64,000 nucleotides of DNA from the NCBI RefSeq assembly GCF_011207455.1, contig NZ_CP048877.1, positions 612,576-676,575 on the forward strand. Direction: 5' to 3'. This DNA is from Thermosulfuriphilus ammonigenes (lineage in GTDB: Bacteria > Desulfobacterota > Thermodesulfobacteria > Thermodesulfobacteriales > ST65). Shown here piece by piece: positions 52,642-53,808 of this stretch (position 1 is the first letter of the stretch; every line of letters begins with the position of its first letter). Below the pieces are notes generated by a model. It searched no databases, was not told where the DNA came from, and was given only the letters and a program-made list of their open reading frames with translations. The translations under genes and the position numbers were made by a program.

Positions 52642-52693
52642 CCGTTTAGCAAAAATAAACGGGGATGACAGGAGAGACCACTCCTGTCATCCC
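52642..52693 (-). promoter_or_regulatory. Tandem hairpins between rplL and rpoB (possible attenuator)
   Basis: On the minus strand a perfect 13-bp stem with a loop of six (52662-52693, arms CTCCTGTCATCCC and its complement) is followed by a U-rich stretch GTTTATTTTTG. That stretch is itself part of a second hairpin (52642-52662, stem CCGTTTA/TAAACGG). The first hairpin has the form of an intrinsic terminator. An rplL-rpoB attenuator that lowers rpoBC relative to ribosomal protein genes is established in E. coli; the same role here is inferred. Confidence 0.7.
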
Positions 52694-53135: not shown

Positions 53136-53669
53136 TTAGGCGGCCTCAGCCTGGGCCTTCTTTTCCTTGATAGCCTCAAGAGCAAATAAAAATTTCTGAA
53201 GAATTCCCGACATAAGCCGGACAAACTTGGCCGGCGGTCCCTGAAGAACAGAGAGCATCTGGGCCAGGAGAACCTCCTTAGTGGGCAGAGTAGCCAAAGA
53301 GGCCACTTCCTCGGCAGAAATACCCTTGCCAGAGAGAACTCCACCCCTTACGGCAAACTTCTTGTTTTCTTTGGCAAACTCCGTAAGTATCTTGGCCACA
53401 GCCACCGGATCTTCATAAGCAATAGCGACAGCGGTAGCCCCCTCAATATAATTGGTGAGAGGTTCTACCGGAGTCTCTTTGGAGGCCAGACGGAGAAGAG
53501 TATTCTTAACCACCTGATAGTGGGTATTCTCTTCTCGGAGCTTCTTACGCAACTCGCTCATCTGGGCCACCGTAAGACCTTCGATCCCGGTGACAAAGAC
53601 CGCCTGCGCCGTACCAAAACGCTCCCGCAGATCGGCAACTAGCTTTTCTTTTTCTGCTCTCTTAAGCAA
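53136..53669 (-). CDS. rplJ: Ribosomal protein L10, TTG start
   Basis: This stalk base protein binds L7/L12 dimers through its C-terminal helix. The 177 residues have [40 protein letters not shown] and [20 protein letters not shown]. The start codon is TTG at 53669, six bases after a GGGGGG Shine-Dalgarno; no in-frame ATG occurs for over 35 codons. A leader with L10-type structure lies just upstream (53686-53791). Confidence 0.95.
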
Positions 53670-53685
53670 CTTTTTCCCCCCTTTC

Positions 53686-53791
53686 CTTTGACATTTTATA
53701 TGATGTCAAAGGCAGAGGTACTCCCGGGCACTGTCTCGGTAGGCTGGAGGCCTCCAATTAAACACCAGGGGTGTACCTACTGTCTTTGACA
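53686..53791 (-). promoter_or_regulatory. L10 leader with mutually exclusive helices
   Basis: Between rplA and rplJ the RNA contains TAATTGGAGG and AGCCTACCGAGACAG, resembling the conserved part of the L10 autoregulatory leader. A closing stem pairs TGTCAAAG (53784-53791) and CAG, AGGTAC inside it with GTACCT, CTG and CTTTGACA (53704-53711). The same CTTTGACAT can instead pair perfectly over nine bases with ATGTCAAAG (53686-53694) just before the rplJ Shine-Dalgarno. L10-L12 binding to such leaders is known to repress rplJL; the two-state fold here is read from the sequence. Confidence 0.78.
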
Positions 53792-53808
53792 ATGCCACGT
53801 CCAAGGAG

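Follow-up and report, generated by a model that had tools for sequence, protein, structure and literature searches.

A compact rplJ leader of Thermosulfuriphilus ammonigenes with three mutually exclusive helices and no terminator: a candidate L10-responsive switch of translation

The control of its own synthesis by the L10(L12)4 complex is among the earliest known examples of feedback by ribosomal proteins, and the only L10(L12)4 mechanism that has been firmly dissected, that of Bacillus subtilis, is a transcriptional one. How a leader of this kind could act on translation is the question raised by the rplA–rplJ interval of Thermosulfuriphilus ammonigenes, which we analyzed as part of a 64-kb stretch of DNA (64,000 nucleotides, here called the window). 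The gene order, assigned from the translations, is tuf–secE–nusG–rplK–rplA–rplJ–rplL–rpoB, with tRNA genes ahead of tuf and also between tuf and secE. The leader is located on the minus strand between the rplA stop (53809) and the TTG start of rplJ, which lies 6 nt past the Shine-Dalgarno (SD) sequence, and it is compact, as the distance from the L10 site to the SD is only about 110 nt (Table 1). Relatives of rplJ are present in 374 of the 395 genomes of the phylum. A first-pass annotation had described two competing structures in this leader, and had proposed that L10–L12 binding decides between them.

Table 1. Positions of the features discussed for the rplJ leader, in window coordinates
Feature	Position	Strand	Basis or remark
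rplJ (ribosomal protein L10)	53136..53669	(-)	TTG start; open reading frame and relatives
SD of rplJ, AAAGGGGGG	53676..53684	(-)	sequence; duplex with the anti-SD predicted at -10.3 kcal/mol
SD hairpin extension, CCUCU (53718-53714)/AGGGG (53682-53678), inside the SD	53678..53718	(-)	minimum free energy fold; prediction only
SD hairpin, 10 bp, CCUUUGACAU-CAUAUAAA-AUGUCAAAGG, directly 5' of the SD	53685..53712	(-)	folding; covariation in relatives
Switching strand, GUACCUCUGCCUUUGACA	53704..53721	(-)	presumed ON when paired with the kink-turn arm, presumed OFF when part of the SD hairpin
L10(L12)4-binding site (putative)	53727..53796	(-)	RF00557 alignment; covarying pairs
Long (anti-sequestering) helix, 5' strand, UGUCAAAG-A-CAG-U-AGGUAC	53773..53791	(-)	pairs with 53721-53704; is also the kink-turn arm of the L10 site

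Read 5' to 3' on the minus strand, the leader contains UGUCAAAG at 53791–53784, CUUUGACA at 53711–53704, and UGUCAAAG again at 53693–53686, with sequences and coordinates as first described, and the middle element is complementary to both UGUCAAAG copies, the upstream and the downstream one. Both annotated structures are present: a long helix that combines UGUCAAAG/CUUUGACA (8 bp), CAG/CUG (3 bp), and AGGUAC/GUACCU (6 bp), and a 9-bp hairpin before the SD, which is extended to 10 bp by the pair C53712–G53685. The two helices have eight bases in common, compete for CUUUGACA, and thus exclude each other, as had been claimed. An 8-nt triple of the type X..rc(X)..X with a short hairpin loop occurs only once on both strands of the window, namely in this leader, and arose once when the leader was dinucleotide-shuffled 20,000 times; the leader folds with a z-score of −3.8. 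In the leader of the window, the minimum free energy fold, which is the presumed OFF fold, covers only five of the nine SD bases.

The leader contains a third structure, the putative L10(L12)4-binding site. It consists of a basal stem GGCAUUGUC/GACAGUGCC, a kink-turn (bulge AAA, GA, and CCGA), a stem GUAGG/CCUAC, a hairpin ACACC/GGUGU, and the unpaired UUAAU (53761–53757), and its core AAAGACAGUAGG...UUAAU...CCUACCGAGACA sits between both strands of the long helix. The kink-turn together with the UAA core presumably mimics the L10 site of the 23S rRNA. The kink-turn arms AAAGA/CCGAG and UUAAU align to the consensus of the Rfam family RF00557 (L10_leader), and the leader and the family model share the core AAGACAG.AGG...UUAAU...CCU.CCGAG; the model differs by its U-rich 3' end, which the leaders described here do not have. 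When matches up to E <= 10 are considered, RF00557 aligns at 53807–53696, at the correct place and on the correct strand, with 14.2 bits in comparison to the curated cut-off of 44. At the gathering threshold, the Rfam search returned only tRNAs and no leader match, and a search of the organism's own genome with RF00557 gave no match at E <= 0.001. When the leaders of 20 relatives were scanned, three appeared at E <= 1, the best with 36.2 bits and thus also below 44, and none of the leaders scanned here is reported by Rfam annotation. miRNA families that scored above RF00557 at the leader were chance matches to hairpins and were disregarded.

In an alignment of 83 leaders, which was fitted to this same structure, 95.5% of the cells at 14 counted pairs were paired, and double-sided changes occurred at 10 pairs, with 148 double-changed cells, a value reached in 0 of 500 shuffles and approached by none of the slid versions of the alignment. 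The stem GUAGG/CCUAC kept its pairing in 99.7% and also showed double-sided changes. As judged from these sequence comparisons, the L10 core is real despite its sub-cut-off Rfam score. The first-pass assignment to the L10-type leaders is thus backed by the covariation of the core and by the in-place alignment, and the lack of a match to the family model is a formal one.

The position of the L10 site changes the understanding of the long helix. The 5' strand of the long helix, UGUC-AAAGA-CAG-U-AGGUAC, comprises the 5' strand of the basal stem, the bulge of the kink-turn, and the inner-stem AGG of the L10 site, and eight paired bases (53791–53788, 53780, and 53778–53776) are common to both structures. 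Because the long helix uses the kink-turn arm together with the AGG of GUAGG/CCUAC, it cannot coexist with the L10 site. The duplex of the switching strand with the kink-turn arm is predicted at −23.1 kcal/mol, which none of 100 shuffles equals. The leader is therefore a series of three consecutive, mutually exclusive helices, the L10 site, the long helix, and the SD hairpin, and as the long helix excludes L10 binding, L10 binding should abolish the long helix and favor the SD hairpin.

At full length and 37°C, the fold with the SD hairpin has a calculated free energy of −57.6 kcal/mol versus −53.9 kcal/mol with the long helix forced. For a transcript truncated at 53704, the lowest energy is that of the long helix (−41.4 kcal/mol versus −32.0 kcal/mol for the L10 site, with the energy of the kink-turn lying outside the model). 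Since the OFF hairpin is favored by 3.7 kcal/mol at full length without protein, the ON state would have to be kinetic according to these models, and L10 would have to act early. When the long helix is formed, the calculated SD accessibility in the window changes from 0.44 to 0.39 at 37°C, i.e., a predicted gain is absent, and from about 0.45–0.48 to 0.61–0.66 at 60–70°C, which is a modest effect; at 60°C, the rise is from about 0.45 to 0.61. We also noticed a CUCCUU(GG) element at 53801–53808 on the minus strand, directly past the rplA stop, that can pair with the G-run of the SD when the long helix is forced.

For the analysis of relatives, we built a covariance model from the leader (R1), which included the L10 site and the SD hairpin and left out the long helix. 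With a threshold of E <= 0.01, R1 matched 111 of the 395 phylum genomes, and a genome almost always had a single match. All 80 genomes that were checked had the match 5' of rplJ and in the orientation of this gene, with a median gap of 1 nt and a maximum of 144 nt. Within the same order, eight leaders have almost the same sequence in each of the three helices. In 84 distinct leaders from 38 families, the long helix had a median rank of 1% relative to shuffles, and 53 of the 84 were in the best 5%. A family's own kink-turn arm performed better than the arms of other families by −2.2 kcal/mol, with negative values in 30 of the 38 families (p = 1.5e-6). Leaders found with R1 are chosen partly on the downstream sequence, and a per-family sample collected with a regular expression for the L10 core is the fairer test. 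In this sample of about one genome per family, in which the loci for 22 of 71 families were obtained after the search with R1, 42 of the 71 families had a recognizable L10 core; the long helix was significant (p <= 0.05) in 21 of these 42 cores, with about two expected, and the other half had no significant long helix. Own kink-turn arms again beat swapped ones (p = 3.7e-5).

Compensatory changes in relatives, which the first-pass annotation had suggested to look for, were found in both helices. Pairs of the long helix and of the SD hairpin were counted in an alignment of one helix type with fixed spacing; an alignment that combined two helix types was discarded because MAFFT had misaligned it. 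The long helix was paired at 90.1% over 22 distinct sequences and had double-sided changes at two pairs (7 cells; 17 of 500 shuffles), which sit at its variable end. Its covariation score is weak (48 of 500 shuffles) because the kink-turn arm hardly varies. The SD hairpin showed double-sided changes at two pairs in 21 relatives (15 cells; 0 of 500 shuffles). One shared base can be A or G; in the long helix it remains paired, as U-A or U-G, and in the SD hairpin the change is compensated, as A-U or G-C. More distant families achieve the same logic with distinct sequences, and both CUCUG and CUCCGG types occur. In family f20, the long helix is AGGCAC/GUGCCU and the SD hairpin contains GACAG/CUGUC, three families (f80, f50, and f63) have CUUUGGC with ACUGCC, and families f51 and f34 as well as a Desulfobacteraceae genome have strands such as GCACCUCUGACUUU, GCACCCUUUG, and ACCUCCGG, whose partner is either the kink-turn arm or directly the SD.

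The duplex of the switching strand with the SD was no better than in shuffles (median 23.5%), and in place of this comparison we calculated the cost of opening the SD and used masking as a control. For the downstream part folding alone, the predicted opening cost had a family mean of 5.35 kcal/mol, which fell to 2.74 kcal/mol without the switching strand and to 3.57 kcal/mol without control segments of the same length. Masking of control segments thus also opens the SD, but less than masking of the switching strand, and the difference is significant (p = 0.007), albeit the effect is modest.

In the same order, family f3 has rplJ leaders with a diverged L10 site (L015–L029, L054, and L057–L062), which were not matched in the R1 search. 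These leaders have a GCCCCUUGAG...CUCUUGGGGCC stem 5' of the L10 site and the near-palindrome GAAAGGGUACCCUUUC on its 3' side. GGGUACC is a potential partner of their kink-turn arm AGGUGCC, a pairing that is seen in some of the leaders (p = 0.023 for L028).

A search for terminator-like sites between 53600 and 54000 gave none, and the third helix, the SD hairpin, is followed by GAAAGGGGGG and has no U-tract, and we therefore rejected an intrinsic terminator as the means of attenuation at the leader. As an SD hairpin takes the place of the terminator, the output should be translation initiation, an expectation that relies on the position of the SD and on the predicted opening cost. Together, the conserved exclusive helices and the L10-type leader make autogenous control, which the first-pass annotation had proposed, the best explanation, and in our view it is exerted by a three-state RNA switch at the level of translation, a reading to which we assign a probability of roughly 0.7. 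From this arrangement we infer L10(L12)4 binding, the direction of the switch, a co-transcriptional order of events, and the effect on translation and its size. Free L10(L12)4 would hold the hairpin that is made first (53796–53727), with its kink-turn and UAA core mimicking the 23S rRNA site. The switching strand (53721–53704) would then be left without its upstream partner and would pair with the downstream UGUCAAAG and part of the SD, resulting in the hairpin 53718–53678. With this hairpin closed, initiation at rplJ, and also at rplL, would fall. When no free L10 is present, the switching strand would emerge before the 3' strand of the SD hairpin and could capture the kink-turn arm by forming the 8 + 3 + 6 bp, and this long helix would destroy the L10 site and keep the SD hairpin open, which would be the ON state.

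Three other explanations have to be considered. The first-pass annotation had regarded the 8 + 3 + 6-bp helix as the closing stem of the L10-binding fold, which L10–L12 would stabilize, and the ribosome site would thereby be opened, i.e., activated, or a closed complex would be held. That both helices exist and exclude each other would be expected from this explanation as well, but this helix takes up the kink-turn arm, which is its own 5' strand, as well as the AGG of the highly conserved GUAGG/CCUAC stem, and L10 is a feedback repressor in both E. coli and B. subtilis (PMC4538822, PMC10931766). A closing stem that frees the ribosome site is therefore not supported, and we regard this explanation as the least probable of the three; the reverse direction, which had also been mentioned and in which L10 favors the SD hairpin, is the part that persists. 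It could also be argued that the three-state leader has a transcriptional output, and that L10 provokes termination or Rho access in the rplA–rplJ interval, as the architecture is the same as in B. subtilis, and as Eggerthellaceae and a Clostridia genome have a complement of the kink-turn arm inside a hairpin that is followed by a T-run. However, the absence of a terminator-like site and the sequence that follows the hairpin in the window argue against this, as does the direct pairing of the switching strand with the SD in the relatives f34 and f51, and a transcriptional output thus appears unlikely to us.

The L10 site could also be real and the SD-adjacent hairpin constitutive, serving stability, RNase processing, or as a standby site, with a complementarity to the kink-turn arm that is inherited and no switch at all. 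This would agree with the half of the sampled L10 leaders of the phylum that have no significant long helix, with the modest change in predicted accessibility in the window, and with the E. coli leader, which has an L10 site and no significant complement to its kink-turn arm (487 of 500 shuffles were as good). On the other hand, own and swapped kink-turn arms differ, the double-sided changes are found at the variable end of the long helix, and families reach the same logic by the two different sequence types, which together make a constitutive hairpin quite improbable. We therefore prefer the translational three-state switch, and we consider it rather probable that L10 regulates its own translation through strand exchange in a large part of the phylum: an antisense segment would pick either the kink-turn arm or the SD region, the latter having copied part of the arm (UGUCAAAG here, AGGUG-like elsewhere), and this would be a terminator-free, translational L10 attenuator that has been missed by the Rfam model.

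The closest known system is the B. subtilis rplJL leader, for which experiments have shown a series of an anti-antiterminator (the L10 site), an antiterminator (the second helix), and a terminator (the third helix; PMC4538822). Both leaders have an L10 site with kink-turn and UAA, in both the second helix overlaps the first and the third overlaps the second, and in both L10 on the first helix is expected to favor the third. In contrast to the B. subtilis terminator, the third helix of the window has no U-tract and adjoins and partly covers the SD of rplJ. With E. coli rplJL (MG1655, L169), the leader shares the kink-turn L10 site between rplA and rplJ, and control acts at translation in E. coli, as we propose for the window. 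An old proposal for E. coli holds that L10 binding leads to SD sequestration (reported in PMC4538822), and the detailed translational L10 mechanism has not been resolved in this organism according to a 2024 review (PMC10931766). In E. coli MG1655 (L169:1585–2010), the kink-turn arm contains GCAGGAG and the SD region of rplJ is CCAGGAGC, and thus the SD resembles the arm there too.

L10 leaders, three-state logic, and translational L10 control in E. coli are already known. In comparison to the open papers, our data suggest that what is new is a terminator-free, SD-directed version that occurs across much of the phylum and that, where scanned, stays under the Rfam cut-off. If true, this provides a concrete mechanism for translational L10 control, and since all three states are visible and conserved in compact leaders, the translational mechanism is directly testable. 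It would also mean that one RNA-binding site can be coupled to different outputs, a terminator in some lineages and a hairpin at the ribosome site in others, through a change of the last helix only. Further downstream in the same gene cluster, the rplL–rpoB interval contains a 13-bp hairpin GGGATGACAGGAG..CTCCTGTCATCCC followed by CGTTTATTTT (52662–52693, minus strand), which is the sole terminator-like site between these two genes and possibly represents an attenuator or a processing site by which the amount of L12 relative to RNA polymerase subunits is set.
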